Source: a virus
IMG/VR virus record: IMGVR_UViG_3300028786_000006
Coordinates: 98,342-162,341 of that record
Direction: 5' to 3' (one strand)
Length of the DNA: 64,000 nt
Position 1 is the stretch's first letter, and the number at the start of each line of letters is the position of its first letter. The notes under the pieces are model-generated. The model made no database searches and was not told the origin of the DNA. It saw only the letters and a program-made list of their open reading frames with translations. A program made the translations under genes and the position numbers. Positions 1 through 24,693 of this stretch are shown one piece after another.

Positions 1-984
1 ATGGGCCTCCCAACGGATCTGAGCCTTATTACGACAAACATGACCCCAGCCAAGCTGGCCCGTGTTTGTGCCGCCCTTGACCGCGAGAGCCCCCACCGGG
101 CGGACATCAAGTGGAACGAAACCACTGAGCTGGCCGGCTACCTCCATGCCAAATTCACTCTTCATGGCGAGACGTACACGCTGGACGAAGAGTTTGAAAT
201 GGTCAAGAGCATGTACCTGGAACCGTGTCGCCGCCAGCCGGCGGGACCGTTCATGTCGGTTGTGCGCGGTACGTCAGGCACCGGCAAGGGCACCCGCGTT
301 TGCCAGGTGCTGGAATACCTGAAGACCAAGTTCGAACCAACCACTCTGAACTTCGAGTTCGAAGGGAAGACCAAGCAGTACGGTATCTGCTTCGAAGACC
401 TCAAACTGATCTTCATCGGCACCACGACCAAGTCCAACAAGTCAGGTCTGTCCAGCTGGTCGTCTATGGACTACATCCATAGCACCGTGAAGAAGGCAGA
501 AAACGCCCGGCCGATCGCCAAGTCATGGATCGAAAAGGGCTACAGCCTGGTCCTGGAAGGCGAGCCAATGATGCAGTCGGACAAGTTCCGACCGTTGTTC
601 ATGCAACCTTACTTCGGCGTCGCCCGCTTCCTGATGCCTCACTATTGGTACCAGAACCGTGAACAATATGACGAGCGCATCATGGGGCGGTCGGGTAAAC
701 TTGCTGGCGATAGTGGTTGGGGCCGCAACGAGTCGTATAAGCGAGAGTATGAACGCACCCTGGAAGAGCTTCAGGAGCTGGAGCTGGATGCTACCGGTTG
801 CACACTGCTCCCTCACGACGCGCCCCTGGAGGGCTACGGTGCCTCACTGCTGGCATACCTTGGGCGTGCTGACCTCATTGACGAATTCGTCCGATGGACA
901 GCTGAGAACCCAATGCTCCGGTCGATAGGCGGCGGCAACCCGCTGGCCACGACCAACAACGTCTTCGACATCTTCGGTGCATGA
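1..984 (+). CDS. P-loop kinase, probable 5-hydroxymethyl-dU DNA kinase (HMUDK)
   Basis: A 327-residue P-loop protein with a Walker A GTSGTGKGT at residues 90-98 and a GEPMMQSDKF segment further on, in a nucleotide-kinase-like fold. By family knowledge, P-loop kinases beside aGPT-Pplase/HMUDK-helical genes phosphorylate 5-hydroxymethyl-dU in phage DNA, which activates it for side-chain transfer. The next gene starts 1-2 nt after its stop, and three further genes follow in a tight operon containing two modification-type proteins. The reading frame begins with ATG at base 1, so an upstream start or ribosome site cannot be seen and the N-terminus could be incomplete. A second kinase at 21277 is the competing candidate for this activity. 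Kinase class is secure; the substrate is inferred from context. Confidence 0.72.
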   Translation: MGLPTDLSLITTNMTPAKLARVCAALDRESPHRADIKWNETTELAGYLHAKFTLHGETYTLDEEFEMVKSMYLEPCRRQPAGPFMSVVRGTSGTGKGTRVCQVLEYLKTKFEPTTLNFEFEGKTKQYGICFEDLKLIFIGTTTKSNKSGLSSWSSMDYIHSTVKKAENARPIAKSWIEKGYSLVLEGEPMMQSDKFRPLFMQPYFGVARFLMPHYWYQNREQYDERIMGRSGKLAGDSGWGRNESYKREYERTLEELQELELDATGCTLLPHDAPLEGYGASLLAYLGRADLIDEFVRWTAENPMLRSIGGGNPLATTNNVFDIFGA

Positions 985-985
985 C

Positions 986-2209
986 ATGATAGTTGAAAAG
1001 CAGTACAAACACCCGGCCCTGTCGGAGTTCATCTACCCCATCGAAAAGGGCGTGGACTACCGGCTGAAAGAAAACCGGGCGCACCTCGCCTTTGCCTGGC
1101 AAGAAACCCTCTGCTACACCGAGGAGCACAACCAGCAGCTTCGGTTGATGCTTTGGGCCATCGACAACCAGGACATCAGCGCCGTGCGCGCCCTGGAACA
1201 GAAGCTGTGGTGTGCGTTCCTGTGGGGTTGCTGCTACAACCTGATCGGCCCGTGGGCCATCATGCAAGAGTACCCTGAGCCCCCACGCGGTAAGGACGGC
1301 CTGCAGCGATTCGCTGACTGGTACAACAAGAATTTCGACCGGATGCGCTTCGATACCGACTGCCGCTACCGCAAGTCGAAAATGATCGCATGCGTGACCA
1401 GCTATGTCGAATGGCTGGAGGGTAAGGACCAGTTCGCGGCCTTCGCCCCGATCATTCAGCTGGGTAACAAGAAAGAGCAGTTCCAGCAACTATGGGACGC
1501 TTGTAACAGCTGGAAGTTCTTCGGTCGACTGAGCAACTGGAACACCATCGAGGCGATCGAGCTCGCCACCGACCACCATTACAAGATCGACATCCCATCG
1601 TTCATGTTGACGGACGTCAGTGGTTCTGAGTCCAATCGCAACGGCGCGGCCTTCCTGGCTGGTCACGACGAGCTTGTCACTAAGCACGGCAAGCGCAAGG
1701 ACACTGGTGAGACCATCAGCCAGGCGGACTGTGAGAAGCTCGAAGTTTTGGCTGAAATGTACTTCCAGCAGGCCAAAGCCGACCTGGGCCACCTCAGCTT
1801 CATCAACCGTCTGAACGCCGAGACCAGCATCTTCTGTTGGTTCAAGAAGTTCTTCCGTCTGAAGTCCACCCGTTATGTGGGCTGGGATGGCGAGCGGACT
1901 TACGAAGAGCTGCAGTACATGCATCGGGAATGGCCTGAAGCCAACCTGGAGCCTCTGTGGGAAGCGCGGTATGCCCTGCTCCCAGACTTCCTGCTATGTG
2001 AACAGGCGCCCGAGGGCGAGCAGCGCGGCGTGAACAAAGCCAAGATGCCGCTGTTCTACGAGACCGGCTTCCCCGAGCACATCTACAAGTTCCAGCGCGG
2101 TGAACGTTGGTCGTTCCCCGAAGTAATCACCACCCCGGCCCGCAAACCAGCCCTAAACAAACCGACTGTCGCGGATACCACCCACAGCCTCAACGACTTC
2201 TTCGGATAA
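986..2209 (+). CDS. aGPT-Pplase2 / amino acid:DNA transferase-like protein
   Basis: A 407-residue, mainly helical protein. Two stretches look like the alpha-glutamyl/putrescinyl-thymine pyrophosphorylase clade 2 (now called amino acid:DNA transferase, AADT): DVSGSESNRNG near the middle and ETSIFCWFKKFFR followed by TRYVGW in the C-terminal half. Proteins of this family displace pyrophosphate from activated 5-hmdU in DNA and attach an amino acid or amine. It lies directly after a P-loop kinase. ATG at 986 is preferred; an in-frame GTG at 977 would overlap the kinase by 8 nt. The assignment rests on motif memory, not a search. The amino acid used cannot be told from the sequence. Confidence 0.68.
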   Translation: MIVEKQYKHPALSEFIYPIEKGVDYRLKENRAHLAFAWQETLCYTEEHNQQLRLMLWAIDNQDISAVRALEQKLWCAFLWGCCYNLIGPWAIMQEYPEPPRGKDGLQRFADWYNKNFDRMRFDTDCRYRKSKMIACVTSYVEWLEGKDQFAAFAPIIQLGNKKEQFQQLWDACNSWKFFGRLSNWNTIEAIELATDHHYKIDIPSFMLTDVSGSESNRNGAAFLAGHDELVTKHGKRKDTGETISQADCEKLEVLAEMYFQQAKADLGHLSFINRLNAETSIFCWFKKFFRLKSTRYVGWDGERTYEELQYMHREWPEANLEPLWEARYALLPDFLLCEQAPEGEQRGVNKAKMPLFYETGFPEHIYKFQRGERWSFPEVITTPARKPALNKPTVADTTHSLNDFFG

Positions 2210-2212
2210 CCC

Positions 2213-2389
2213 ATGATCTACAAGAAAGACGACCGCCCGGATTGCCCGGCCTGCGGTGACCCCCTTGACGAGACCTGCAAAGAGCTTGCCAAGGCCGGCG
2301 GTACGCACAACCACTACTGTGGTGCTGTGTACACAGTTCGTAAACTCAACAACGGTCAATATGACGTTGCCTATGACGGGAATGCGTAA
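2213..2389 (+). CDS. Small zinc-ribbon-like protein
   Basis: A 58-residue protein starting 3 nt after the preceding stop. It carries CPAC near residues 11-14 and a second group HNHYC near 32-36, so a single zinc site of the C-x2-C/H-x3-C kind is likely. Its stop overlaps the ATG of the next gene (TAATG). Being translationally coupled within the modification operon suggests a helper role with the DNA-modifying enzymes, but no function can be assigned. Confidence 0.7.
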   Translation: MIYKKDDRPDCPACGDPLDETCKELAKAGGTHNHYCGAVYTVRKLNNGQYDVAYDGNA

Positions 2390-2952
2390 TGAGCAAGAAG
2401 ATGAAGGCGCAGCACGCGCTTATCACTGAACACTTTTCGAAGCTGGACGGTGTCCACTACCTGCGTCTGACCGATGCGACCCTGGTCGCCAAAATGACCG
2501 ATGACCAGATCCTGTCGTTCTGTGGGCATCACCTGTCTAAGCAGACAGGGCTGCCGGTGCGTGGCCTGGCGGTTGCCCCCGGCTTCCACCTGACCGCCAA
2601 GAGCATGATGTACTTCAACTTCAACTTCTTCAACACCGACGACTCGATCTCGGCAGTTGAGCTGCGCGGTAAGCTGCGTTCGAAGTTGGAACCACACCAG
2701 GCCGGCCACTACCCCGAGCTGTTCCGCTTCGGCGTGGGTAAGGCTGACTTCTTCTGGGTGGTGGGTGAAGTTGACCGCAGCACCCAGATCGTGCGCTTCT
2801 CGTACGTTGGTCACGTCGACCGCCCGGCAACCTTCTTCCGACGCATCCGGGTCAGCCGCGAAATGGCTCCTGGGCAGCTGACCAACGTACGCCAGTCGAC
2901 TCACTACATCGACCCGGAATACAAGAAGCAGTATGTGTCGGAGCTGGCATAA
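2389..2952 (+). CDS. Hypothetical protein in modification operon
   Basis: A 187-residue soluble protein I do not recognise. It has a basic, tyrosine-rich C-terminus and a central aromatic-rich stretch (MMYFNFNFFN). It overlaps its neighbours by TAATG at both ends, so it is made together with the zinc-ribbon protein and the HMUDK-helical protein. Position alone suggests a part in base hypermodification or in control of it. Confidence 0.8.
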   Translation: MSKKMKAQHALITEHFSKLDGVHYLRLTDATLVAKMTDDQILSFCGHHLSKQTGLPVRGLAVAPGFHLTAKSMMYFNFNFFNTDDSISAVELRGKLRSKLEPHQAGHYPELFRFGVGKADFFWVVGEVDRSTQIVRFSYVGHVDRPATFFRRIRVSREMAPGQLTNVRQSTHYIDPEYKKQYVSELA

Positions 2953-4130
2953 TGCAAGGGCGCCCGGCTGATATTCGTTACAATGGCGTCCGCCCTGACA
3001 AGATCGACAACGCCAATCCGAAGCTTAACCAAAAGAACCTGGGCCGGTGCTTGGATTGGATCGTCGAGCGCTACAAGATCCACGTGAAGAAAGACGTCCT
3101 GGGCCTACCCTCGCCCTGGACGGAAGACCCGGTACTACGGGACCACAAGTTCACGAACGTCCGGAGAGAGCACGACAGGGAGTCCAAGCACGTCATTCGT
3201 GGCATCTGCGAGAACCCATCCCTGTCGATGGAACAGAAGGTCCAAAACCTGATCATGTTCCGAATGTTCAATGTTTGGTCCACGGTCGAATTGATCGGCG
3301 GCCCCTTCACCAACTTCGGGTCGATTGACCTGGACGCGGTGCGGGCAAAGCTGAAGGTGGTTGATGGTGAGCGAGTGTTCACCAACGCCTTCAACTGCGG
3401 TGGCCTGAAGCAATGCCTGGCCTTTCCTGATCTCGATTATGTCAACCATGCGCACCAGCGCCGGGGTGGCATGATGGTCAAGGTGATGGACCTCCCGAAC
3501 ATGGCTGAGTCGGAAATGGACTACAAGGTAGCCCGTGACCTGGCGCAAGCTGAGCCCGATCGGTACTCCATCGAAGGGTGGGAACCGAACATGGCGATGC
3601 GGGTGGTTCGTTACCTGAACACCTTCTTCAAGAACAACCCAAACTGGGTGTCTGAGTTCTTGATGTCGAGCACTCAGAAGGCGGCGTTCCTGAAGCTGAA
3701 TGAAGTGCGAGGCATCAGCGAGTTCCTGGGTTACCAGATCTTCGTCGACTGCACGTACTGCCCGGAGTACCCGTTCAGCGAGAACGAGTTCACCATCGCC
3801 GGGCCGGGTTGTAAGATGGGCCTGGACTTCATCTTCGATGATCGCGACGGAATGACGTACGAGGAGTGCATCTTCTGGCTCCGCGATCATCAGGAAGAGT
3901 TGCTCTGGGACTTGAAGAGTGTTCACCACTCCGAGTTCATGGACGACCAATACGTCGAAGAGCAAACGTTCAGTGTCATGTCGTGGGAAAACGTCATGTG
4001 CGAGACGAGCAAGTACATCCGCTGTATGGATGCCCTGGAACGCGGTGACAAGCCTCGCACCAGGGTTAAGTTCAACGGCGGCGCAAGCAAAGCACCGTCA
4101 ACCACCAAATCAGTGCTGGACCTCTTCTGA
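2952..4130 (+). CDS. HMUDK helical-domain / aGPT-Pplase-like protein
   Basis: A 392-residue protein with the motif EDPVLRDHKFTNVRREHDR around residues 55-75. I recognise this as the signature of the 5-hmdU DNA kinase helical domain, an all-helical fold of the DNA-glycosylase-like type described with phage thymine hypermodification. In other phages this domain is often fused to the P-loop kinase; here kinase and helical domain are separate genes 2 kb apart. The ATG overlaps the previous stop (TAATG). A short acidic C-terminal tail ends in a hydrophobic SVLDLF, similar in style to the NDFFG end of the 986 gene and the VFDIFGA end of the kinase. These tails could be docking peptides for the sliding clamp or another partner. 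Family assignment is from memory of the motif. Confidence 0.65.
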   Translation: MQGRPADIRYNGVRPDKIDNANPKLNQKNLGRCLDWIVERYKIHVKKDVLGLPSPWTEDPVLRDHKFTNVRREHDRESKHVIRGICENPSLSMEQKVQNLIMFRMFNVWSTVELIGGPFTNFGSIDLDAVRAKLKVVDGERVFTNAFNCGGLKQCLAFPDLDYVNHAHQRRGGMMVKVMDLPNMAESEMDYKVARDLAQAEPDRYSIEGWEPNMAMRVVRYLNTFFKNNPNWVSEFLMSSTQKAAFLKLNEVRGISEFLGYQIFVDCTYCPEYPFSENEFTIAGPGCKMGLDFIFDDRDGMTYEECIFWLRDHQEELLWDLKSVHHSEFMDDQYVEEQTFSVMSWENVMCETSKYIRCMDALERGDKPRTRVKFNGGASKAPSTTKSVLDLF

Positions 4131-4150
4131 GACCAGCTCTAGGAGTTTGA

Positions 4151-4513
4151 ATGATCAACCGCCTGAAACGGCTATTCGGGCGCAAGCCCAACCCGTCTCT
4201 ACAGCTCCAACAGCAACAATCCCGCGCCGGTCGTATACCACCTCCCACACCGGAGTTGGTCAAATACAACGATGAATTCCCCCTGAGTGCGTTCAATACG
4301 CCCAGGCAATCCAGAATCGTTGATACCATCCGTGATGTACCGGCTGAACGCGACCCAAGCCCGCCTCATGTACCTCGGGTCGCCTACGTTGAACGTGACG
4401 TGAGTGCATATGAAGCCCCGGTTCACCACCAAAGCGATAGCCATAGCCGTTGTGGCGGCGGGGATAGCCCTACGAGTGGCGATAGCGGTTCTCCTTGCGG
4501 GGGTACTGACTAA
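4151..4513 (+). CDS. Hypothetical protein, low-complexity
   Basis: A 120-residue protein with a good ribosome site (AGGAG, 7 nt before ATG). The N-terminus is basic (MINRLKRLFGRK), followed by a Gln run and Pro-rich segments. The last 25 residues are Ser/Gly/Cys-rich and lie over a second reading frame that encodes a convincing membrane segment (4410-4526). The C-terminus may therefore be the less constrained of the two frames. The stop overlaps the next ATG. No function recognised. Confidence 0.6.
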   Translation: MINRLKRLFGRKPNPSLQLQQQQSRAGRIPPPTPELVKYNDEFPLSAFNTPRQSRIVDTIRDVPAERDPSPPHVPRVAYVERDVSAYEAPVHHQSDSHSRCGGGDSPTSGDSGSPCGGTD

Positions 4514-4526
4514 TGGCAGCCCTTAG
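4410..4526 (+). CDS. Possible overlapping small membrane protein
   Basis: A 38-residue frame nested out of phase inside the previous gene and running 13 nt into the next. It has a basic start (MKPRFTTK) and about 22 hydrophobic residues (AIAIAVVAAGIALRVAIAVLLAGVL), like a single membrane-spanning peptide. The ribosome site is weak. It is listed because the alternative frame gives only low-complexity sequence here. Confidence 0.35.
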   Translation: MKPRFTTKAIAIAVVAAGIALRVAIAVLLAGVLTNGSP

Positions 4527-5034
4527 ACCTGTCCGCTACCTGGAAATTTCGCCACGCCAAACCGGCAAAACTGAACGTTTGGTTCAGGATGCGACCTACC
4601 AGCACGTCGTGAATAACAAGAAGATCGTCCTGGTTGGCATGAGAATGTCCTGGGCTCGCGACCTCATGCCATTCGTGTACGCCGCCGGTGAATCTGAAGA
4701 TGAGGTGCTTCGCCAAATCGGCGGCCGCGCCAAACCTGAAGAGCTCATGTGGTACTACGATGAGTTCGACCATATGCGTTCGCGATTCAGTATCCGCGAA
4801 AACGGCTATTACTGCACCACGGCCAAGTACGTGCGGACCTTCAGCAAGGAGCACCCTGAAGCGATCCTCACTGACCAGCTGTTGCAGCTCGTGGATGGGA
4901 ATGGTGGCGTGTATGCCACCTCGGCCCATAACCCGCTCAAACGGTCCAGCCTGGCTAAACACGTCCGCGACATCCACCCAGATGCCATCAAAACTGAGCT
5001 TAATGGCCAGCTGATCGCGTTTGAAGCAAGCTAA
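4513..5034 (+). CDS. P-loop ATPase of unknown role
   Basis: A 173-residue single-domain NTPase. Walker A is SPRQTGKT at residues 13-20 and a Walker B-like WYYDEFD sits around residue 79. The arrangement resembles the ATPase core of terminases and helicases, but it is too short for either and has no visible nuclease domain. It precedes the sliding-clamp gene by about 95 nt and overlaps the gene before it by TAATG. It could be a helper ATPase for replication or DNA modification. Confidence 0.72.
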   Translation: MAALRPVRYLEISPRQTGKTERLVQDATYQHVVNNKKIVLVGMRMSWARDLMPFVYAAGESEDEVLRQIGGRAKPEELMWYYDEFDHMRSRFSIRENGYYCTTAKYVRTFSKEHPEAILTDQLLQLVDGNGGVYATSAHNPLKRSSLAKHVRDIHPDAIKTELNGQLIAFEAS

Positions 5035-5044
5035 ACCCCGTTTG

Positions 5045-5094
5045 AAGGCGTAACGCCTTTCTATCAACCTGGAGGCCATGTACAATAAGGCCTC
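5045..5094. other. Two inverted repeats before the clamp gene
   Basis: AAGGCG/CGCCTT (5045-5059, 3-nt loop) is followed by GAGGCC/GGCCTC (5072-5094) flanking TACAATAA. The first could be a weak terminator or RNA-processing hairpin; the second could hold a promoter -10 or an operator. No clear -35 is visible. Confidence 0.35.
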
Positions 5095-5128
5095 TTAACG
5101 AATCAACACCCACATCCGAGGCATTTGA

Positions 5129-5812
5129 ATGACCCAGCAAGTAAAACTCTCCAAGGATACTCTTGAAGTCCTCAAGATGTTCAGCACCATCAACGGTAGC
5201 CTGGCATTCAAAGCCGGCAATAAGCTGCGCACCATCTCCCCAGGCGGCGGCGCGGTCTTTGCAGAAGTTGAGATCCCGGAAGAGTTCCCGATCCCTTTCA
5301 ACATCTACGAGCTGAACCGCTTCTTGAGCGTGTTGAGCCTGGCGACCATGAAAGAAGCCGTGCTCGAATTCAGCGACGACAAAAAGGTCGTGATCAAAGG
5401 CACCGGCGGCACCAAGATCAATTACTACTTCACCAGCGACTCCTTCGTCACGGCGCCGGACCGCGAGCTGAAGCTGCCAAGTGTTGACCTCGACGTCACC
5501 CTGACCCCGGAAGTGATCGACGGTTTCATGCGTGCTGCCAGCGCCCTGGGCCACAAGATCATGGCTTTCACCGTTCGCGGCGACGAAGCGTTCCTGGTCG
5601 GCACCAGCCCTGAGCTGGGCGATGCGTCCAACGACTACGAAGTCAGCCTGGGTACGGTTGAAGGCGCTTCTGAAGGCACCTACCGCCTGAAGATCGAGAA
5701 CATCAAGCTGTTGGCCGGCGACTACCGCGTCCAAGTCTGTGCTCGCGGCATGGTGGCCTTCTCCAACGAACAGCGCAAGCTCAAGGTGTTCGTCGGTCTG
5801 GAAATGGTCTAA
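5129..5812 (+). CDS. 45: DNA polymerase sliding clamp (T4 gp45 type)
   Basis: A 227-residue clamp protein. The N-terminus VKLSKDTLEVLKMFSTINGS aligns with T4 gp45 (MKLSKDTTALLKNFATINS) and the pattern continues through the two clamp domains. In T4 the trimeric ring tethers the polymerase to DNA and, as a mobile enhancer, activates late transcription. GAGG lies 8 nt before ATG. It is followed by both clamp-loader genes and regA, the T4 order 45-44-62-regA. That matters because 45, 44 and 62 are RegA-repressed in T4. No degradation or fusion is seen. Confidence 0.95.
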   Translation: MTQQVKLSKDTLEVLKMFSTINGSLAFKAGNKLRTISPGGGAVFAEVEIPEEFPIPFNIYELNRFLSVLSLATMKEAVLEFSDDKKVVIKGTGGTKINYYFTSDSFVTAPDRELKLPSVDLDVTLTPEVIDGFMRAASALGHKIMAFTVRGDEAFLVGTSPELGDASNDYEVSLGTVEGASEGTYRLKIENIKLLAGDYRVQVCARGMVAFSNEQRKLKVFVGLEMV

Positions 5813-5882
5813 TCGGCCACCCCGCTTGAAATCAGGTTGACCAACGGTTGACCTGATACACCCCGCTAACTTGAGGTTAAAC

Positions 5883-6833
5883 ATGTCGCAGCAAGAACAC
5901 ATCTGGGCTCAAAAGTACCGTCCCACCACCATCAGCGATATCATCCTGCCGGCCGGCCTGGTTAACGAACTGGCCAACTACGTCAAGGATGGCAAAGCGC
6001 CTCACCTGCTCCTCGCCAGCCGCTTGCCGGGCACCGGTAAGACCACCCTGGCCCTGGCCCTGTGTGCTGACCTGGGTGCAAACCCTCTGGTGATCAACGC
6101 CAGCCTGAACAACAGCATCGACGACATCCGCTCCAATGTGACCCAGTACGCTACCGGCGTATCCGTCATGGGCGGCCCGAAGATCGTTGTCCTGGACGAA
6201 GCCGAGCGTCTGTCCCAGGCCGCCCAAGAAGCCCTCAAAGGCATCCTCGAGGCTGTCTCCAAGAACTGCACGTTCATCCTTACGACCAACAACCCTCAGC
6301 GTATCATTGAGCCGCTGCGCGATCGTTGCATCGTCAAGGAATTCGTCTGGTCGGCCGAAGACACCACCGCCATGCGTGCCAAGATGATGCGCCGCTGCGC
6401 TGAAATCCTGACTGCTGAAGGCGTGACCTTCAAGCCGGCGGCCCTGGCCGGTGTTGTCAAGAAGCACTTCCCGAGCAACCGCCGTATCCTGAACACCCTT
6501 CAGGAATACTCGAACCAGTTCGACAAGAACATCGACGAAGGCATCCTGGGTATGCTCAACGTGGGTGACGTTGACAACCTGCTCGAAGCCCTGGTCAAGA
6601 AGGACTTCCAGGCCGTCAAAGAGTGGTGCTCCACCAACGCAGACCAGTTGTCTGACGGCATCTACCTCAAGCTGTTCGAAACCCTCAAGGACAGGCTGCA
6701 CCCTCAATCGGTGCCGCAGTTGATCTTGACCCTGGGCGACTTCCAGCGTTTCCACGCAACGGTCCCTGATCTGTTCATCCACAGCCTTGCGCTGATGACT
6801 ACCATCATGGCCGACTGCACCTTCACCAAGTAA
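5883..6833 (+). CDS. 44: Clamp loader large subunit (T4 gp44 type)
   Basis: A 316-residue AAA+ ATPase. Walker A is LPGTGKTT at residues 48-55, Walker B is VVLDEAER near 102-109, sensor 1 is TTNN, and an arginine-finger region DRC follows EPL. In T4 four gp44 and one gp62 open the gp45 ring at the primer end. The N-terminus HIWAQKYRPTTISDIILP is the typical clamp-loader start. ATG at 5883 has GAGG 6 nt upstream; a TTG at 5871 is in frame but lies at the ribosome site itself. The usual SRC motif reads DRC here, a small deviation. Confidence 0.95.
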   Translation: MSQQEHIWAQKYRPTTISDIILPAGLVNELANYVKDGKAPHLLLASRLPGTGKTTLALALCADLGANPLVINASLNNSIDDIRSNVTQYATGVSVMGGPKIVVLDEAERLSQAAQEALKGILEAVSKNCTFILTTNNPQRIIEPLRDRCIVKEFVWSAEDTTAMRAKMMRRCAEILTAEGVTFKPAALAGVVKKHFPSNRRILNTLQEYSNQFDKNIDEGILGMLNVGDVDNLLEALVKKDFQAVKEWCSTNADQLSDGIYLKLFETLKDRLHPQSVPQLILTLGDFQRFHATVPDLFIHSLALMTTIMADCTFTK

Positions 6834-6845
6834 GGGGCGACTGCT

Positions 6846-7262
6846 ATGGCTGACGATGGTAAAATTGGACTGTTTGATTGGCTCAACGCCTTGAACAGCT
6901 CCAAAACCGAGCTGATGGTAGACGAGGCGAGTGAGAAGTCGTTCGACCCGTTCATTATCCGCCGGGGCGTTGCCCAGAACATGGACACCGTCCTCCTCGC
7001 GCAAGAGATGAACAAACTCCACGCCCTGCCAAAGCGGATGGTGCATGACTTCTTTATGAAGGCCATCACCAGGAAGAAGCGGTACGGGAAGTGGGCAAAG
7101 AAAGAGGTGGTGGACTCGGGTATTACCGTGATCTCCGCCTACTATAAGGTCTCCATCCGGGAGGCCACCGAATACGCCAAGCTGATGACCCCAGAGCAGA
7201 TCAAAGAGCTCGAAGGTCGGATGGACCAAGGCGGCCGCAAGGGCGAAAAGAGCGGCAAGTGA
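6846..7262 (+). CDS. 62: Clamp loader small subunit (T4 gp62 type)
   Basis: A 138-residue protein recognised by KKRYGKWAKKEVVDSGITVISAYY, which matches the gp62 core (RGKRYGKWAK...), and by position between gp44 and RegA. It is shorter than T4 gp62 (187 residues), mainly at the N-terminus and C-terminus. It has no ATPase motif, as expected for the non-catalytic clasp subunit. It starts 12 nt after the gp44 stop with an AGGGG upstream. Confidence 0.9.
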   Translation: MADDGKIGLFDWLNALNSSKTELMVDEASEKSFDPFIIRRGVAQNMDTVLLAQEMNKLHALPKRMVHDFFMKAITRKKRYGKWAKKEVVDSGITVISAYYKVSIREATEYAKLMTPEQIKELEGRMDQGGRKGEKSGK

Positions 7263-7282
7263 TTTCTGGAGTAAGGCGTAAC

Positions 7283-7768
7283 ATGAGCATCAAAGCAGTT
7301 GATTTGGTTAATTCGCCGTTGAGTGGCGATGAAATTTTGCCGTACATGGTCGAGGTTAGTTTGCCGACCGCCATCCAGGATGAGCGTGATGCTTTCCTGA
7401 AGATTCGTGAAACACTGACCCGCATTGGCATTGCCTCCCGTCGCGACGTCAACACCCTGTACCAAACTTGCCACATCCTGAGCAAGCGCGGCAAGTTCTA
7501 CATCTGCCACTTCAAGAGCATGTTCGTGCTCGACGGTCGCGAGAACAATCTGAGCGTGAGCGACATTGCCCGCCAGAACCGCATTGCCCGCCTGTTACAA
7601 GAATGGGGCCTGCTGACCATCCTGGACCCATCCATCTGCGACGAACCCGTTGCGAGCATGGGTAACCTGAAGGTCATCCCACACCGCGAGCGCTCTGAGT
7701 GGATTTTATCGCCAAAATATCAGATAGGCAAGAAAGGCGGCCCTAACACGCCCGGTGCAACTTTGTAA
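7283..7768 (+). CDS. regA: RegA translational repressor
   Basis: A 161-residue protein with a clear match to T4 RegA: FLKIRETLTRIGIASRRD, LYQTCHILSKRGKFYICHFKSM, LLQEWGLLTI and EWILSPKYQIG. RegA binds the start region of early phage mRNAs, including those of the clamp and loader genes, and blocks ribosomes. The start at 7283 has GGAG and AAGG upstream and gives about 21 residues before the T4-like start. An internal ATG at 7346 would match the T4 N-terminus but lacks a ribosome site. The C-terminal tail (KKGGPNTPGATL) overlaps the end of the convergent endonuclease gene by 26 nt. Confidence 0.93.
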   Translation: MSIKAVDLVNSPLSGDEILPYMVEVSLPTAIQDERDAFLKIRETLTRIGIASRRDVNTLYQTCHILSKRGKFYICHFKSMFVLDGRENNLSVSDIARQNRIARLLQEWGLLTILDPSICDEPVASMGNLKVIPHRERSEWILSPKYQIGKKGGPNTPGATL

Positions 7769-8660
7769 AATTGCACACGTCGATCTCCTTTCGACAGAAC
7801 GAACAGCACACCCTGGGCCGCGAAGTAGCGGCCTGTTTCATCCGGTCTTTGGTCGCATCGCTCGCCCGCTTACCGACGAACTTCTGAATATGAGCTTCTG
7901 TCATCTTCCGGCCTTTGGCCCAACCGTCTAACCGGTATTTTTGAAGATGGCTAGCATCAATCCTCAGATGGTCGTCACCCCGGTTAACCCAGATGGTGCC
8001 CTTGACAGCATCGGAAATATCAGACTTTGATGCAGGGTTGGATTTGATCCACCCATCGGCGAGTAGGGCATCAACTTCTTCGGGGCGTACCATGCGGCGT
8101 TCGCCAGTGGGTGATAAGACCCACACGGTGCCTTTTGCATTTGTGTTACCCATGAGACCTGGTGGTGTGCCTATTACCCAACTGTCGTCCAGGTAGGGTT
8201 GGAGGTTTTCGATCTTCACCCTCTTGGTAACCCCTCCCCTGGTTATGAACTTGCGGCCCTTGGCGGCTTCTGATAAATGGGAGAAGTCGCTGTTGCGGTG
8301 TTCGATTCTGAGCTTCTCGAACATCCTGGAATTGATCTTGTACGTGCGACCATCGCGTGTACCGGTACACATGGCCCAGAACCCGAACCGAGTGTCTCGG
8401 TTACCAGGTAACGCCCTCCACAGTATGGCGTGCGCGATGTAGTGTGCACGCGGCGACAGAGGGGCTGTGTTCCAAGGGTGTTTGGCTAAGCTGGTGAACT
8501 GAGGAAACAAGCCAGGGGCTTTGGGAAGGATGTGGTGGTTCTCTACAACGGAGGCCGCCGGCTGGGACAGGACGAACTTCAGGTAACGAATAAGGTGATG
8601 CTGATTCACTGGTACGTTGAGATCGTTGAATTGCTTGATAAAGAAATTGATGGTTTTCAT
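7743..8660 (-). CDS. HNH homing endonuclease with repeated DNA-binding modules
   Basis: A 305-residue protein on the reverse strand, alone among forward genes. The HNH core is ENHHILPKAP at residues 40-49 with WNTAPLSPRAHYIAHAILWRALPG after it. Three related modules follow (each about 40 residues, pattern GTxWVxxxGxxxRV...LxxxLxDGWxxG), as in NUMOD-type DNA-binding repeats. The end has CCSFCRKEIDVC...HRAC, a possible zinc site. It is a free-standing mobile endonuclease placed between regA and the next gene, overlapping the 3' end of regA. Such enzymes spread by cutting genomes that lack them. The ribosome site is weak. Confidence 0.88.
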   Translation of the reverse strand: MKTINFFIKQFNDLNVPVNQHHLIRYLKFVLSQPAASVVENHHILPKAPGLFPQFTSLAKHPWNTAPLSPRAHYIAHAILWRALPGNRDTRFGFWAMCTGTRDGRTYKINSRMFEKLRIEHRNSDFSHLSEAAKGRKFITRGGVTKRVKIENLQPYLDDSWVIGTPPGLMGNTNAKGTVWVLSPTGERRMVRPEEVDALLADGWIKSNPASKSDISDAVKGTIWVNRGDDHLRIDASHLQKYRLDGWAKGRKMTEAHIQKFVGKRASDATKDRMKQAATSRPRVCCSFCRKEIDVCNFTKLHRAC

Positions 8661-14263: not shown

Positions 14264-15523
14264 GTGTCCAACGCCAAGCCAAGTCTTGTTGAACGCGATA
14301 CCTCGATGTATGCTGAATTCCTCCAGACCCAGGACATTGCGGAAGTTGCCAAACTTCACAGTGTCAGCGAGTCGACCGTCCGCCGCGCATTGAAGCGAGC
14401 CCGCGAAATACTGGAAGTCCACGCCGATGGGGAGCTCGTTGATGAGAACCTCCGCCTGGGCGCCAGCAAGCAATACCTGCAAGACCGCAACCGCATCGAG
14501 CGGAAATCCTGGCGTGAACACATTCGCATTCAGAATGCAATCGAAGGCCTGAGCCATAACCTCGAGGCCGCCCTGATCGGTTTCGAATTCCAGCGCCCGG
14601 TTGACACCCCTGTCCCAGCTGTGGGCTTGCCTACCGACCCGGTGGGCGTCATCCAGTTCAGTGACATTCACATCAATGAGATCATCCGGGGCCTGACAGG
14701 CAACTCGTATGACATCGACATCGCCTCCCGCCGCATTCACAAGCATGTCCACAAGAGCCTGAATATATTCAAAGCCCAGGGCGTGAAGAACGTGTTGGTG
14801 GCTTTCACCGGTGACATTCTGAACAGCGACCGCCGCCTGGACGAGCTCCTCAATGCCGCCGCGCCGCGTGCCAACGCTGTCCTGTTAGCCGTTGACATCT
14901 TCCAGCAGGCCATCCAGGAAGTGGCGAGAGAGCACCGAGTGACCGTTGCCAGCATCACCGGTAACGAATCGCGCCTCGGCGAGCACATCCACTACGACGA
15001 CTTCCTGGCGATGGACTCTTTCGACATTACGATCCACAACATCCTGGCCCGCCTGTTTGCCGGCTATCCAGGTGTTGAGTTCGCGAAGGTCAGCAACCCT
15101 CTCGAGCAAGTGGTGTCCATCAACGGCTTCAACCTGTTGCTGGTTCACGGTCACTGCCATAAAGGCCTGGCCCGCAACCCTGAAAACGAAGTGTCCCACA
15201 TCAAGTCGCGGTATGCTGCACACGGCATGGTGATCGACTACGTCATCTGTGGCCACATCCACTCGGCTTACGTGTCTGACATGTTCAGTCGATCGTCTGG
15301 GTTGCCTGGCTCCAACGCCTACTCCGACCGGGCGCTGAACCTCAACGGTAAGGCCAGCCAGAACTCGTACGTGATCTGGGCAGACAAGTCCATCGATGCG
15401 TACAAGATCGACCTACAGACCTGGGCTGATGTTGAACCATACGCCTACGACAAGGGCCTCGATATGACCGACCGCAACAGCAAGCTGAAGCCGACGGTCC
15501 TCATCAACTCCATCACTATCTGA
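14264..15523 (+). CDS. HTH-domain metallophosphoesterase
   Basis: 419 residues, GTG start with GGAG 9 nt upstream. Residues 20-45 (IAEVAKLHSVSESTVRRALKRA) form a helix-turn-helix. The C-terminal two thirds is a calcineurin-like metallophosphoesterase: SDIH at 133-136, GD at 183-184, GNE at 233-235, then HGH and GHIH. These residues bind two metal ions in nucleases and phosphatases such as SbcD/Mre11. The HTH suggests recruitment to DNA. No SbcC partner is in the window. It could be a DNA nuclease or a DNA 3'-end phosphatase; substrate unknown. Confidence 0.85.
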   Translation: MSNAKPSLVERDTSMYAEFLQTQDIAEVAKLHSVSESTVRRALKRAREILEVHADGELVDENLRLGASKQYLQDRNRIERKSWREHIRIQNAIEGLSHNLEAALIGFEFQRPVDTPVPAVGLPTDPVGVIQFSDIHINEIIRGLTGNSYDIDIASRRIHKHVHKSLNIFKAQGVKNVLVAFTGDILNSDRRLDELLNAAAPRANAVLLAVDIFQQAIQEVAREHRVTVASITGNESRLGEHIHYDDFLAMDSFDITIHNILARLFAGYPGVEFAKVSNPLEQVVSINGFNLLLVHGHCHKGLARNPENEVSHIKSRYAAHGMVIDYVICGHIHSAYVSDMFSRSSGLPGSNAYSDRALNLNGKASQNSYVIWADKSIDAYKIDLQTWADVEPYAYDKGLDMTDRNSKLKPTVLINSITI

Positions 15524-19570: not shown

Positions 19571-19813
19571 ATGAAAACTCTGTACAGCATCACCGGCCGG
19601 GAACAGGATGTGCGCATTCTGACTAGCTTAACTGAAGTCCGGGAAGAGGTCGTCGCTTTCAGCGGCACCGGCCCAGAAGCTTGCTGGATCAGTGCTGACC
19701 CGCTGAGTAACCTGAACCAGCGCGACGGCAAACTGAAAATTCGACAGCTGGACGGTTGCGGTGTGTTCGAACACAACATCGTTGTTATCCAGCGCCACGA
19801 CGTCAACATCTAA
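19571..19813 (+). CDS. Hypothetical protein
   Basis: 80 residues, GGAGG 5 nt before ATG 19571. Mixed alpha/beta composition (VVAFSGTGPEACWIS). Unknown. Confidence 0.75.
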   Translation: MKTLYSITGREQDVRILTSLTEVREEVVAFSGTGPEACWISADPLSNLNQRDGKLKIRQLDGCGVFEHNIVVIQRHDVNI

Positions 19814-19838
19814 ACAAGCTCTCACTGAGGAGAACACC

Positions 19839-20996
19839 ATGCAACCTGCGATCAATAGTACCATCTTCGACACCCTGTCCATCAACCGTGCCAAGTCCCG
19901 TTGGGACGAGCACCTGTTCGACATGGTGCCTGTGCAAGAACTGGCCAACCCGGTAACCGGTCAAACCATGAAGTTCAAGCGTGGCGACTACTTCGCCCCC
20001 CTGGGCTACGGTGGCATCAACGGCGACAAGCTACGAGTGGCTATCCACATCCTGAGCGAGCACGCCAAGCGCGGCGGTGCCAAGTTGCTGGCCCACGGTA
20101 CAGTCATGGGCTCCCCACAGTCCCCGATGGCCGCTGCAGTTGCCCGCCACTTCGACTACAAGACCATCACCGTCCTGGGCGGCACCAAGCCTGAGACCTG
20201 CATCAAGAAAGACACCATTCAGATGGCCGCCTGGTTCGGCAGCGAGTTCGCCTTCGTGGGCAACGGCTACAACAACGTCATCCAGCCTCGTGTTCAGAAG
20301 ATCCTGGCTGAGCGAGCGCCGACCGGCTTGTACCTCGAGTACGGCATCACCCTGGACCACAACAAACACCCGGCGGCCGACATCGCAGCCTTCCATGGCA
20401 TCGGTGCTGAGCAAGTACAGAACATCCCTGACGACGTCGACACCCTGGTCATCCCGTTCGGCTCGGCGAACTCCGGCACCTCCATCCTGCTGGGCCTGTG
20501 CAAGTATCCCAAGCCCAACATCAAGGAAGTGGTCCTGGTAGGCATCGGCCCCAACCGCGTACGCTTCATGCAAGAGCGCCTGGCGGTTATCGGTAAGCAT
20601 CTGGGCATCGACACCGACATGTTCGACCTGACCGAGACTGACAAGGTCGAAGTGAACAAGACGGCAGACATCGCCAACTTCTTCGACGGCGGGCCGACCA
20701 CGCGGGCCAAGTATTACCGCATGACCCACTATGACCTGCACTCCACCAAGTACGTTGAGTACAATGACCTGATGGAATACAACTGGAACGGCCTGGAGCT
20801 GCACCCTCGATACGAAGGCAAGGTGATGACCTACCTCCAGGAAAAGCATCCTGAACTGATCCGCCCAACCGCGCTGTTCTGGATCGTCGGCAGCAAGCCG
20901 CGCATCGAGCCGATGCTGGCCAGTATGGGCCACGAGATCAGCGAGGAAGCCCCGACTGCAGTCGACCTGCTGACTCCGGTACAAGCGGCGGCGTAA
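19839..20996 (+). CDS. PLP-dependent enzyme, fold type II (ACC-deaminase/desulfhydrase-like)
   Basis: 385 residues. KRGDYFAPLGYGGINGDKLR has the PLP-lysine context of the tryptophan-synthase-beta superfamily (GGxNxDKLR; Lys at about 64). AHGTVMGSPQSPMAAAVA follows, as does a Gly-rich phosphate loop GSANSGTS. Family members deaminate or beta-eliminate small amino acids, or decarboxylate them. PLP enzymes are known partners in thymidine hypermodification of phages ViI and M6, where they trim the attached amino acid. The gene directly precedes a P-loop kinase and the hydroxymethylase. The leader contains CACTGAGG. The C-terminus is about 40 residues longer than a minimal type II enzyme. Confidence 0.8.
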   Translation: MQPAINSTIFDTLSINRAKSRWDEHLFDMVPVQELANPVTGQTMKFKRGDYFAPLGYGGINGDKLRVAIHILSEHAKRGGAKLLAHGTVMGSPQSPMAAAVARHFDYKTITVLGGTKPETCIKKDTIQMAAWFGSEFAFVGNGYNNVIQPRVQKILAERAPTGLYLEYGITLDHNKHPAADIAAFHGIGAEQVQNIPDDVDTLVIPFGSANSGTSILLGLCKYPKPNIKEVVLVGIGPNRVRFMQERLAVIGKHLGIDTDMFDLTETDKVEVNKTADIANFFDGGPTTRAKYYRMTHYDLHSTKYVEYNDLMEYNWNGLELHPRYEGKVMTYLQEKHPELIRPTALFWIVGSKPRIEPMLASMGHEISEEAPTAVDLLTPVQAAA

Positions 20997-21034
20997 AGTC
21001 GTAACGGCACAGAGACGGCACTCGAGGAGGCCTG

Positions 21035-21268: not shown

Positions 21269-21276
21269 GGACACAT

Positions 21277-22002
21277 ATGAGCACGTTATTCCGTAAGGAT
21301 GCTGTACACCACCACATGTTCGACGAGCCGGACTACAGCCAGGTGGAAGCATTCATGAACCGGGCCGGGGCTCACAAGGCCCCAATCTTGTTGTACCTGA
21401 AAGGCACCAATGGTTCAGGGAAGTCGACAATTCCGACCCTGCTCCGCGACTATGATCCTGATGCTTTTTTCGCGGTGGTGAATAACCGCAAGCTGCTGAC
21501 CGTGTTCCCGTCCTTTCGCATCGTTGCCTGTGGCAAGTATGACGACAGCAACAGCAAGGGGTGCGATGCCCTGAAGGATACGGAGGAGATGATTGAGGCC
21601 CTGAAACTGGCGGCTGAACACTTCCCTGCGTACGACCTGATATTCGAGGGTATCATCCCTGCGACGATTGAAGGTCCATGGGTGCCCCGGTTACTGGAAC
21701 ATGCAGGGCCGTACCGGACACTGGTGCTGGGGTACATCAACATCCCAGTGGAAACCTGCATCGAGCGTATCAAAGGCCGCAACGCGCCGGGTAAAGAGTT
21801 CAAAGAAGACCTGGTGCGCGGCAAGTACGAAGGCATGATGAAGTCGATGGAGCGCCATCATGAGGTGTTCCCGGACATCTTGATGTACCACATCGACACC
21901 GACAAACCCAAGAACGATATGCTCTGGGACTTCTTGAACCGTTCATGGTTTGTCGGCCACCAACCAGGCGAGGCATTGAGCCTTGCGGAGCTTGCCTCGT
22001 AA
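21277..22002 (+). CDS. P-loop kinase, candidate 5-hmdU DNA kinase
   Basis: 241 residues with Walker A GTNGSGKST at 43-51, a later IFEG, and a lid-like CIERIKGRN. This is the small-molecule/nucleic-acid kinase form seen with hypermodification genes. It lies between the PLP enzyme and the hydroxymethylase. Two kinases (this and 1-984) may act in sequence, since ViI-type chemistry uses a 5-pyrophosphoryl intermediate, or on different substrates. A terminator follows. Confidence 0.72.
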   Translation: MSTLFRKDAVHHHMFDEPDYSQVEAFMNRAGAHKAPILLYLKGTNGSGKSTIPTLLRDYDPDAFFAVVNNRKLLTVFPSFRIVACGKYDDSNSKGCDALKDTEEMIEALKLAAEHFPAYDLIFEGIIPATIEGPWVPRLLEHAGPYRTLVLGYINIPVETCIERIKGRNAPGKEFKEDLVRGKYEGMMKSMERHHEVFPDILMYHIDTDKPKNDMLWDFLNRSWFVGHQPGEALSLAELAS

Positions 22003-22053
22003 CACTGTTCGCACTACTATACACCCAGCTACACATCTCTGGCGTTTCCCTTT

Positions 22054-22091
22054 GAGCCCCGGCGTCTAACCCCGCGCCGGGGCTCCTTTTT
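22054..22091 (+). terminator. Intrinsic terminator
   Basis: GAGCCCCGGCG/CGCCGGGGCTC stem with TTTTT tail, after the kinase. Confidence 0.88.
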
Positions 22092-22103
22092 GATGGAGCA
22101 TGT

Positions 22104-22433
22104 ATGACCCGCCACGACCCTTTGATTATGGAAGACCAACAGAAGCACGACAACAGACGCGGTAAGATCGCTCTGTCTCTCGCAGCTGCTCTAGCCATGG
22201 TAGGCGGCCCAACATCAGGGATCCCCTTCTTTGGCCCGGCACCCCGGTCCTTCCGCCCACGCCCCCAAGCCACGCCAGAACAGATCGCGGCTGGTTTGAA
22301 GGCAAGCGCTGAAGCCAAGCTCAAGCGAGAAAAACGTCGTCTTCGTAATGTTCGCCATTCCGGAGCCTCCCCAACGCATGTCAATCCACCAATCCCTCGA
22401 CTTCAATGTGATTCAGGGCAAGTCGACCTCTGA
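22104..22433 (+). CDS. Hypothetical protein
   Basis: 109 residues, basic (KLKREKRRLRN), Pro-rich middle, and a weakly hydrophobic segment (ALSLAAALAMVGG). Its end overlaps the following gene by about 56 nt, so its last 18 residues may not be constrained. GGAG precedes ATG. Confidence 0.55.
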   Translation: MTRHDPLIMEDQQKHDNRRGKIALSLAAALAMVGGPTSGIPFFGPAPRSFRPRPQATPEQIAAGLKASAEAKLKREKRRLRNVRHSGASPTHVNPPIPRLQCDSGQVDL

Positions 22434-23532
22434 TACCATCTACCAGGCGTATGACGCCATCTTGACCCGAGGCGTTGATGTTCAGACCCGCAATGGGGCC
22501 GCTCGAACAATCTTCAACGCTTTGATGTTCACCGAAAACCCACGCCACCGCCACCTGGCCCTTGAAGGCCGCAGCTCCAACATCTTCCAAATGATGGCGG
22601 AAACCCTCTGGGTGCTGTCTGGTAGCGGCCGCGTCACCGGGTTCCTTGAGTACTTCTTGCCTCGCGCTTTGAACTATTCCGACGACGGCGTAAGCTGGCG
22701 CGGCGCCTACGGCCCACGTCTGCTGCGTAACAACCAGCTCGACGCAGCGGTTGAAGCCTTCGTACAGGATGGTCTGCAAACCCGCCGGGCAATCGTGTCG
22801 ATCTTCGACCCTTCCCTGGACACCCAGGACGCCCTGAAAGAAGTCTATGGTCTGGACAACACCAAGGACTTGCCGTGCAACCTTCTGCTGAACTTCTACA
22901 CCGACGCCCTGGGCCGCTTCTGTGTGAAGCTGGTTCAACGTTCTGGTGACGTGTTGTTCGGCGCCGGTAGCATCAACCCGTTTGAGTTCACGCTCATTCA
23001 AGAGCTGGTCTATCAGAAGGTTCGCCAACACTACCCAGGCCTCCAGCTCGGCCCGTTCGTTCATGACGTGACCAACCTCCACGTCTACGAGCAGTTCAAA
23101 CCCCAGGCCCAAAAGGCTTGCGGTACGCCCCAGGTCGCATTGGGCCACAACACCGATCTGGCCTGCCAGGAAGCCTGGAACGTCTGCTCATTTGAAGAGC
23201 TGGCCTATACCCTGGAAGCGTTCGTTGATGCCGCCGAGGACTTCATTCGGTCCCCGAGCCGCGATACCAGCGACGCCTTTGAACGCCAGTTCGCCCTGAC
23301 TGCTCAAAAGATCAACCACTCGATGGATAGCGCTGACAATCTTCTGATTGACTACGCCTTCATCACCATGCGTTACCTGCAGGCTAAATTGTTGCCTAGC
23401 GTCCTTGAACATAAGCGCATCGGCCTCTGCAAGCATGCGCCGGAAGACTTGATTTTGGCTATCAAACAATCCAAATTCAACCCTTTCGACCGAGTTATCA
23501 TCTATGACGGCAGCTTCGCCTCTCTGCAGTAA
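22378..23532 (+). CDS. Thymidylate-synthase family dUMP hydroxymethylase
   Basis: 384 residues. TS-superfamily hallmarks: Y111 G112 xR, catalytic Cys in PCN at 166-168, RSGDVLFG at 188-195 and the pyrimidine-selecting Asn at about 200 (SINPFEF). Asn rather than Asp at this place fits dUMP rather than dCMP as substrate. The usual PPCH reads LPCN. In phages with modified thymine this enzyme makes 5-hydroxymethyl-dUMP from dUMP with methylene-tetrahydrofolate. ATG at 22378 has CGGAG upstream; ATG at 22348 is possible. The dNMP kinase follows with a 29-nt overlap. Confidence 0.82.
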   Translation: MSIHQSLDFNVIQGKSTSDTIYQAYDAILTRGVDVQTRNGAARTIFNALMFTENPRHRHLALEGRSSNIFQMMAETLWVLSGSGRVTGFLEYFLPRALNYSDDGVSWRGAYGPRLLRNNQLDAAVEAFVQDGLQTRRAIVSIFDPSLDTQDALKEVYGLDNTKDLPCNLLLNFYTDALGRFCVKLVQRSGDVLFGAGSINPFEFTLIQELVYQKVRQHYPGLQLGPFVHDVTNLHVYEQFKPQAQKACGTPQVALGHNTDLACQEAWNVCSFEELAYTLEAFVDAAEDFIRSPSRDTSDAFERQFALTAQKINHSMDSADNLLIDYAFITMRYLQAKLLPSVLEHKRIGLCKHAPEDLILAIKQSKFNPFDRVIIYDGSFASLQ

Positions 23533-24145
23533 CATCGTAGCTCTCGTGGCGCGCAAGCGCTGCGGGAAGGACACCCTGGCCGATGTACTGGGCCACGAGT
23601 ACGGGGCTCACAAGCTGAGCTTCAGCGACGGGGTACGGGCCATCACCAGCGACCTGTTCCCCTGGGTCCCTTCTGAGGTTCCCGACTCCATCAAGGACAA
23701 CGTGGTAGACCACCCGGCAAACGTCCGGGGTCTGACCTACCGCGAAGTCTGGCGCACTGTAGACCACCTGCGAGCCAACGTCGACCCCCACCTGTTCATC
23801 AACTGGTTCCGTGACAACCAGCTGGATATGGCCGTCAAGAACCCAACCCTGTGCTTCGTTATTGCGCGGGTCAGTACTGCGGAAGAGTTCGCTCTCCTCA
23901 AGGCCCTGGGTATCAAGACCGTCCGCATCATCCGCAAGGACATGACGGGGGTCGACCTTGACCCGTTTGAAGACTATCTCAGCCAGGCTGAGGTTGATCA
24001 TGAATATCTGTTCGACATTAATGACGGCACCGCGCCGTTTCTTGACTTTTTTCGCGAGGAAGTGCTTTGGAAATCCAATCAAGTGTGGCAACAACGGTCA
24101 GCCCTGACGTCGTCCTTGGGTATATGCGACGGTCGGACTACCTGA
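23504..24145 (+). CDS. Deoxynucleoside monophosphate kinase (T4 gp1 type)
   Basis: 213 residues. The N-terminus NIVALVARKRCGKDTLADVL carries the Walker-like ARKRCGKDT (16-24), typical of phage dNMP kinases (GxKRSGKDT). It raises modified and normal dNMPs to diphosphates. Overlaps the hydroxymethylase by 29 nt and the dUTPase-like gene by 79 nt, an unusually long overlap. Confidence 0.82.
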   Translation: MTAASPLCSNIVALVARKRCGKDTLADVLGHEYGAHKLSFSDGVRAITSDLFPWVPSEVPDSIKDNVVDHPANVRGLTYREVWRTVDHLRANVDPHLFINWFRDNQLDMAVKNPTLCFVIARVSTAEEFALLKALGIKTVRIIRKDMTGVDLDPFEDYLSQAEVDHEYLFDINDGTAPFLDFFREEVLWKSNQVWQQRSALTSSLGICDGRTT

Positions 24146-24693
24146 ACACCCGCTACACCGGGCCGGACTGGATCGATATCGGCTGGGACAAGTTCACGGC
24201 CGCCGCCGAGACCGAATTCGTTGAGTTTCTCTCCGAAATGACCGGTGAATGGAAGTGGTACAGCAACAACCCACGCATTCAGCGGAACAAGGCGCTGTTC
24301 GAGCTGGTTGACTGGTTCCTGTTCACCGCTTCAGCGATCCACTGCGCAAACCGCTATATCGGCCTCGACGGCGTTGAGGATGCCCTGGTCAGCTACCAGG
24401 CGTTCGGTACTGACCCGTCTTGGTGGCCACCGAAGGACATCGGCGTCGGTAAGGTGATGGTTTGGAAGTCTGAACTGGTCGTACTGTCGGAATACGCCTC
24501 GATCTCGGTCAGCATCCAAAAGCTGGCTGTTACCCTCGACATCATGCTGGGTTACATCGGTGCCACCCCGGCCGACTTTGACCAGGCGTACGAGGAGAAA
24601 TATGCGATGTGCTTGAAGCGGGTTGAGGCCGGCATCATGCGCGGCGTACCGTACGACAAGACCAAAGAAGTGTACTCGGAGATCTTGGTATGA
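24067..24693 (+). CDS. dUTPase/dCTPase-like all-alpha NTP pyrophosphatase
   Basis: 208 residues. EFVEFLSEMTGEWKW followed by LFELVDWFLFTASAIH fits the E-xx-E ... E-xx-D metal site of dimeric dUTPases. It converts dUTP to dUMP, the substrate of the hydroxymethylase two genes upstream, and keeps uracil out of the DNA. TTG start at 24067 has GAGGA 6 nt upstream; ATG at 24124 is an alternative that shortens the overlap. Confidence 0.78.
   Translation: MEIQSSVATTVSPDVVLGYMRRSDYLNTRYTGPDWIDIGWDKFTAAAETEFVEFLSEMTGEWKWYSNNPRIQRNKALFELVDWFLFTASAIHCANRYIGLDGVEDALVSYQAFGTDPSWWPPKDIGVGKVMVWKSELVVLSEYASISVSIQKLAVTLDIMLGYIGATPADFDQAYEEKYAMCLKRVEAGIMRGVPYDKTKEVYSEILV

Follow-up and report, generated by a model that had tools for sequence, protein, structure and literature searches.

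Thymidine-hypermodification enzymes of a probable Pseudomonas phage share a clamp-binding-like C-terminal tail with its replisome

In the DNA of phages ViI and CBA120, 5-(2-aminoethoxy)methyl-deoxyuridine (5-NeOmdU) replaces about 40% of thymine, and the 5-NeOmdU genes are reportedly conserved across the family (PMC11721090, PMC6449724). In phage T4, the C-termini of gp43, gp33 and gp55 are interchangeable and bind the sliding clamp gp45 (PMC2988020). Furthermore, the T4 alpha-glucosyltransferase (alpha-GT), a DNA-base modifying enzyme, binds gp45 in pull-downs, as confirmed in 2026 (PMC13216743), a link of the kind that we propose here. We analyzed a stretch of 64,000 nucleotides (hereafter the window), bases 98342-162341 of the 162,341-base virus record IMGVR_UViG_3300028786_000006. 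It opens with a five-gene operon (positions 1-4130) encoding, among others, a 5-hydroxymethyl-deoxyuridine (5-hmdU) DNA kinase (HMUD2), an amino acid:DNA transferase (AADT) and an HMUDK_hel protein. The pathway is known in kind; the surprising and testable result is that these three enzymes share a tail with the replisome.

Salmonella phage ViI (Vi01, Kuttervirus, Ackermannviridae) carries orthologues of HMUD2, AADT, HMUDK_hel, a further 5-hmdU DNA kinase (5-HMUDK), a pyridoxal phosphate (PLP) enzyme, a thymidylate-synthase homologue and a deoxynucleoside monophosphate (dNMP) kinase and, as here, its three DNA-acting enzymes share their tail with its own polymerase. The window differs from ViI in that HMUD2, AADT and HMUDK_hel, which are split in ViI, lie in one operon with two additional genes, in that HMUD2 has an extra N-terminal region, and in that the tail is of the T4-like VxDLF type and not of the VNLL type. 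Pseudomonas phage Cygsa01 (PP179332, proposed Cygnusvirus), which is the nearest annotated relative, with 77% nucleotide identity across 84% of positions 1-8000 of the window, has the same operon, including the two additional genes, which encode proteins of 58 and 187 amino acids (aa); it differs by a degenerate AADT tail.

The 5-(2-aminoethyl)deoxyuridine (5-NedU) pathway of Pseudomonas phage M6/PaMx11 has the AADT fold in common with this locus (5-phosphomethyl-deoxyuridine (5-PmdU) glycinyltransferase, 8z2n). M6 also has the HMUDK_hel, 5-HMUDK and PALP families, as here, and no match to HMUD2. M6 is a siphovirus that lacks a T4-type replisome, and no tail is common to its enzymes. A radical-SAM-type gene (annotated as DNA repair photolyase) lies near its AADT; no counterpart was noticed in the local gene neighbourhood of the window AADT, where no family search was made. 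Delftia phage phiW-14, which contains alpha-putrescinylthymine, has the AADT and HMUDK_hel families and a tail shared with its polymerase. Unlike the phage studied here, it lacks Pfam matches for HMUD2 and for the PLP enzyme, and its amine chemistry is different. The clamp-binding motif of T4 gp43, gp33 and gp55 is of the same type and occupies the same extreme C-terminal position as the tails described below.

C-terminal tails shared with the replisome

The C-termini of HMUD2, AADT and HMUDK_hel resemble one another despite the different families of the three proteins, as noticed in alignments with their relatives (Table 1). In the same phage, the DNA polymerase ends in KASVMDFFS and gp33 in VSLTDLFGV, and gp55 has SIFDEFF near its end; the motif common to the ends of the enzymes, the polymerase and gp33, and found near that of gp55, is [SN][VL]xD[FLI]F. 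The corresponding T4 tails are SLDFLFG (gp43), SLDFLYEAND (gp55) and TLDFLL (gp33). Six of the 1332 six-frame open reading frames (ORFs) end with the motif: those of the polymerase, gp33, an 85-aa Cys-rich protein encoded next to the DNA ligase, HMUD2, AADT and HMUDK_hel. Moreover, the C-terminal 26 residues encoded by each of 227 genes were scored with a tail profile whose only sources were the polymerase, gp33 and gp55 of this phage and of Cygsa01. The first seven ranks (scores from 20.0 to 15.8, with 13.5 for rank 8) were taken, in this order, by the polymerase, the ligase-neighbour protein, gp33, HMUDK_hel, gp55, AADT and HMUD2; for random internal 12-mers, the rate of reaching a score of 15 was 0.0007. 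HMUDK_hel and HMUD2 of Cygsa01 ranked 4 and 5.

The tails vary between lineages but, as far as the sequences tell, they do so as a set. Vibrio phage K361 has KLW at the end of the polymerase, the ligase-neighbour protein and the three enzymes HMUD2, AADT and HMUDK_hel; the rest of its 930 ORFs lack it. VNLL-type tails are found on the polymerase, HMUD2, AADT and HMUDK_hel of ViI. In phiW-14, LGxFF-type tails are carried by the polymerase, AADT, an M6-gp54-like kinase (gp36) and, less exactly, HMUDK_hel; gp36 is labelled a kinase after a note in its record on similarity to M6-type proteins, and it gave no match to PF18748. The tails in metagenomic contigs L086, L098 and L101 are of the form -EW[LIFM]. 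Enzyme tails match that of the polymerase in the phage studied here, Cygsa01, ViI, K361, phiW-14 and L098, but not in Aeromonas phage phiA8-29 and contig L055.

Tail similarity between different families within a genome was 25.0, versus 12.0 with genomes permuted (0/20000 permutations, five lineages). Permuting the polymerase against the enzymes also gave 0/20000, and still did so with Aeromonas phage phiA8-29 included. Since the lineages are few and related, these figures are guides and not exact probabilities. Random gene sets equalled the match of the enzymes to the polymerase tail in 2 (phage of the window), 5 (ViI), 0 (K361) and 22 (phiW-14, two enzymes) of 30000 draws, and random gene trios never reached the observed tail similarity in the first three of these phages (0/20000). 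In M6, which has related enzymes and no T4-type replisome, tail similarity was at background (mean 7.4).

AlphaFold2 (AF2) models of AADT and HMUDK_hel (mean confidence, pLDDT, 88.8 and 87) both show a well-predicted core, a stretch of some 20-25 residues with very low confidence, and then a short helix where the motif lies. In AADT, the disordered linker spans residues 382-405 and the helix residues 405-409; in HMUDK_hel, linker residues 373-392 are below a pLDDT of 50 and the helix covers residues 388-391. This modelled arrangement of core, disordered linker and terminal helix corresponds to that of a tethered enzyme. The top fold match of the AADT model in the PDB is 8z2n, the 5-PmdU glycinyltransferase (PUGT) of a Pseudomonas phage (Foldseek probability 1.00, E 0.015, TM 0.54 of target), a model-based match that supports amino-acid transfer by AADT onto phosphorylated 5-hmdU. 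The best match of HMUDK_hel is likewise 8z2n, weakly (probability 0.63), and hhalign of HMUDK_hel against AADT gave 99% under one column setting and 0.7% under another; the two proteins may be distant relatives.

Two other proteins bear comparable tails. The Cys-rich (CxCG...CxACG) protein of 85-103 aa lies directly upstream of the DNA ligase (here G000:C1 18635-18892, minus strand, outside the window; counterparts at 109399-109710 in Cygsa01 and VPHK361_0077 in K361). In each phage it has that phage's version of the clamp-like tail (SLFDFF, SLLDFF and KTKKLW, respectively), and it is possibly a clamp adaptor for the ligase. In addition, a 569-aa ORF ending at G000:C1 73877 (plus strand), whose Cygsa01 counterpart (1-1710) is annotated as terminase large subunit, ends in the clamp-tail-like GGSLDEFFQN (GGSLDDFFNN in Cygsa01); its profile rank is 10 among 227 genes here and 6 among 237 in Cygsa01.

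Hypermodification gene set and predicted base

An earlier sequence-only reading had described the five ORFs in 1-4130 as a thymidine hypermodification gene set. All five are present and closely packed, and Pfam families and orthology with ViI support this assignment; the proteins starting at 986 and 2952, whose placement outside the AADT and HMUDK families that reading had named as grounds for abandoning its claim, are both placed inside them by Pfam. The translational coupling that it also proposed is plausible: TAATG overlaps occur at 2389 and 2952 and spacing is tight. The window begins exactly at the ATG of HMUD2, which is complete and not cut, as judged from the alignment with Cygsa01. 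Its stop codon (TGA, 982-984) is followed one base later by ATG 986, which the Cygsa01 alignment favours as AADT start over GTG 977, which would overlap HMUD2; AADT stops at 2209 and the 58-aa ORF starts at 2213. HMUD2 (ViI orthologue Vi01_196, orf00243) has about 84 additional N-terminal residues that it shares with Cygsa01 in the alignment. By homology, AADT is the supported label for the second protein, called aGPT-Pplase2/AADT-like in the earlier reading, which is 53% identical to ViI Vi01_199 (orf00247) and 87% to Cygsa01, and HMUDK_hel is 49% identical to ViI Vi01_130c (orf00160) and 83% to Cygsa01. Protein identity of the three enzymes to Cygsa01 ranges from 65 to 87%, and all five operon genes are annotated there as hypothetical proteins.

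The remaining pathway genes, which, like the shared tails, the sequence-only reading had missed, lie at 19761-24693 of the same window. The PLP enzyme is 50% identical over 394 aa to ViI Vi01_182 (orf00226); its PALP score of 33.9 falls short of the cut-off (35), as does that of the ViI orthologue. 5-HMUDK is 43% identical to ViI Vi01_061c (orf00067), the thymidylate-synthase homologue aligns with those of ViI (orf00066), phiW-14 and M6, and the dNMP kinase is 89% identical to Cygsa01 and 32% to ViI dnk (orf00065). By homology, the ViI-type 5-NeOmdU gene set is complete: AADT, HMUDK, HMUD2, HMUDK_hel, PLP enzyme, probable deoxyuridine monophosphate (dUMP) hydroxymethylase and probable 5-hmdUMP kinase. 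About 345-400 phage records, the majority from Ackermannviridae and their relatives, contain homologues of AADT, HMUDK_hel, HMUD2, the PLP enzyme and 5-HMUDK. Homologues of 5-HMUDK are often annotated as terminase small subunit in GenBank (baseplate hub in Cygsa01 and SenALZ1), and those of HMUD2 as guanylate kinase in many records.

Since the gene set is the same as that of ViI, whose base is known, 5-NeOmdU is the parsimonious prediction for this phage and our best guess from the genes. The families and the orthology are established here; the chemistry and the substrate we infer. The earlier suggestion that the set may give a new base is unsupported because of this prediction, the main enzymes, including the PLP enzyme, being orthologous to those of ViI.

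Table 1. Positions of the features discussed, in window coordinates.
Feature	Position	Strand	Basis and remarks
HMUD2, 5-hmdU DNA kinase 2, P-loop GTSGTGKGT	1..984	+	PF18747, E 3.5e-83
Clamp-binding-like motif NVFDIF of HMUD2 (end NNVFDIFGA)	958..975	+	Tail search and profile
AADT, amino acid:DNA transferase	977..2209 (start likelier ATG 986)	+	ADDT PF18724, E 3.2e-44
Clamp-binding-like motif SLNDFF of AADT (end HSLNDFFG)	2186..2203	+	Tail search and profile, AF2
58-aa Cys-rich ORF, homologue in Cygsa01	2213..2389	+	ORF, Cygsa01 comparison
187-aa orphan protein	2389..2952	+	Cygsa01 homologue, 61-62% identity; no clamp-like tail
HMUDK_hel	2952..4130	+	PF18723, E 1.1e-58
Clamp-binding-like motif SVLDLF of HMUDK_hel (end KSVLDLF)	4110..4127	+	Tail search and profile, AF2
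gp45 sliding clamp	5129..5812	+	phmmer to T4 gp45 1czd, E 1.2e-17; proposed docking partner of the tails
Clamp loader gp44, gp62, plus RegA	5871..7768	+	Homology
PLP enzyme (PALP fold type II), proposed decarboxylase of the transferred amino acid	19761..20996	+	Homology; no clamp-like tail
5-HMUDK (HMUDK_HMUD1), P-loop GTNGSGKST	21277..22002	+	PF18748, E 3.4e-50; no clamp-like tail
Thymidylate-synthase homologue, probable dUMP hydroxymethylase	22348..23532	+	PF00303, E 1.6e-11
dNMP kinase, probable 5-hmdUMP kinase	23504..24145	+	PF21448, E 5e-6, just under cut-off
dUTPase_2-like protein	24067..24693	+	PF08761, E 0.0023, under cut-off

A T4-type replisome and a Pseudomonas host had also been proposed. 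The replisome is confirmed by the gp45, gp44, gp62 and RegA genes (5129-7768) that adjoin the operon, gp45 being clearly related to those of T4 (Table 1) and RB69 (1b77/1b8h, E 7.3e-17, phmmer), and Pseudomonas is the probable host, Cygsa01 having been isolated on P. syringae. The replication cluster is split at 7743-8660 by an oppositely oriented ORF of 305 aa (minus strand), which resembles a phiW-14 gene annotated as homing endonuclease (32% over 121 aa). Furthermore, the protein encoded at 14264-15523 combines an N-terminal sigma-70 region-4-like helix-turn-helix with a calcineurin-like phosphoesterase domain, and is 80% identical to a Cygsa01 gene product annotated cpdA.

Clamp tethering and competing explanations

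The joint explanation that we favour, with a probability of about 0.72, is ViI-type post-replicative thymidine hypermodification with gp45 tethering of HMUD2, AADT and HMUDK_hel. The thymidylate-synthase homologue would make 5-hmdUMP, the dNMP kinase would bring it toward 5-hmdUTP, and the DNA polymerase would incorporate 5-hmdU. HMUDK and HMUD2 would then phosphorylate a portion of the 5-hmdU in DNA, AADT, aided by HMUDK_hel, would swap the phosphate for an amino acid, and the PLP enzyme would trim this amino acid to give 5-NeOmdU. In ViI the amino acid used by AADT is reportedly serine, and the order of the steps follows what is said of the ViI/M6 chemistry. Through their flexible linker and tail, clamp gp45 would keep HMUD2, AADT and HMUDK_hel on 5-hmdU DNA that has just been copied, so that modification would follow the fork. 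The tails and their statistics, which the analysis established, suggest that these three enzymes ride the replication clamp and decorate the DNA during copying; the binding itself we infer. More generally, it is likely that, in phages with a T4-type replisome, the sliding clamp recruits enzymes acting on 5-hmdU in DNA via C-terminal tails that co-vary with the polymerase tail, and that hypermodification is fork-coupled in at least five lineages with five tail sequences. In a literature search of partial coverage, no report of clamp-binding tails on thymidine-modifying enzymes was found, and the novelty is provisional.

Several points weigh against tethering of a ViI-type pathway. The AADT tail of Cygsa01 is degenerate (NDLMGFF, rank 15), 5-HMUDK and the PLP enzyme lack a clamp-like tail in this phage, and gp33 of ViI lacks the ViI tail. 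In phiA8-29 and the related contig L055, KLW is common to the three enzymes, but the polymerases end in VNVLKFFK or VNVFSFIKKKAE, so that polymerase and enzymes do not agree in their tails in every case. The T4 alpha-GT binds gp45 yet has no such C-terminal motif, which is also absent from T4 beta-GT and gp42, whereas three separate enzymes bear it here; moreover, gp45 binding in T4 does not set the alpha:beta ratio (PMC13216743). Binding of the tails to gp45 is a prediction from their sequences, and the amino acid used by the window AADT is not readable from sequence.

The mismatch in phiA8-29 and L055, together with the KLW and EWL tails that are unlike the T4 motif, would fit tails that are real but dock on another hub (clamp loader, gp32 or RNA polymerase) or on two different sites. 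We consider this unlikely: gp43, gp33 and gp55 are the known T4 binders of gp45 by such C-termini (PMC2988020), and all three bear the motif in this phage. That the likeness of the tails reflects chance or low complexity is extremely improbable; the motif is just six residues long, but neither the random trios nor the cross-lineage permutation reproduced the similarity, and it recurs independently with five different sequences. A chance origin was rejected on the permutation tests and the profile ranking.

As for the chemistry, a new base could arise only through the 187-aa orphan, which, alone or with the 58-aa Cys-rich protein, would modify 5-NeOmdU further or switch the amino acid of AADT. 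Both genes are located within the operon, flanked by AADT and HMUDK_hel, are retained at the same place in Cygsa01, look protein-coding (ratio of nonsynonymous to synonymous substitutions, dN/dS, 0.44 and 0.50), and counterparts were not found in ViI. Such a base is nevertheless quite unlikely. Neither ORF matches a curated Pfam family above cut-off, and no relative of the 187-aa protein besides that of Cygsa01 was found in phages, IMG/VR (two scans) or the PDB. No family or relative thus indicates an enzyme, and every gene needed for 5-NeOmdU is present. In K361 the corresponding position is likewise occupied by two small genes that look unrelated, so that insertions may simply be tolerated there; kinship of the 187-aa protein with these genes was considered, and the likeness is unconvincing. 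Finally, the pathway might stop early or be partly decayed, leaving virion DNA with 5-hmdU or an undecarboxylated amino-acid adduct. Catalytic function is not readable from sequence, and nothing specific points to decay; this outcome is very unlikely, given that the alignments show conserved P-loops and a conserved PLP lysine region and that AADT, HMUDK_hel and PALP are strongly constrained (dN/dS 0.13-0.19 versus Cygsa01).

Significance of clamp-riding enzymes

For the operon, the claim of a new base gives way to a specific prediction, 5-NeOmdU, that the 187-aa gene alone could break. Clamp-riding enzymes would give a concrete answer to why only part of the thymines are hypermodified and how modification keeps pace with replication. 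They would also extend the link between the T4 alpha-GT and gp45 to several steps of one pathway. Moreover, such tails may allow clamp clients, including unknown proteins, to be found from sequence in any T4-like phage.

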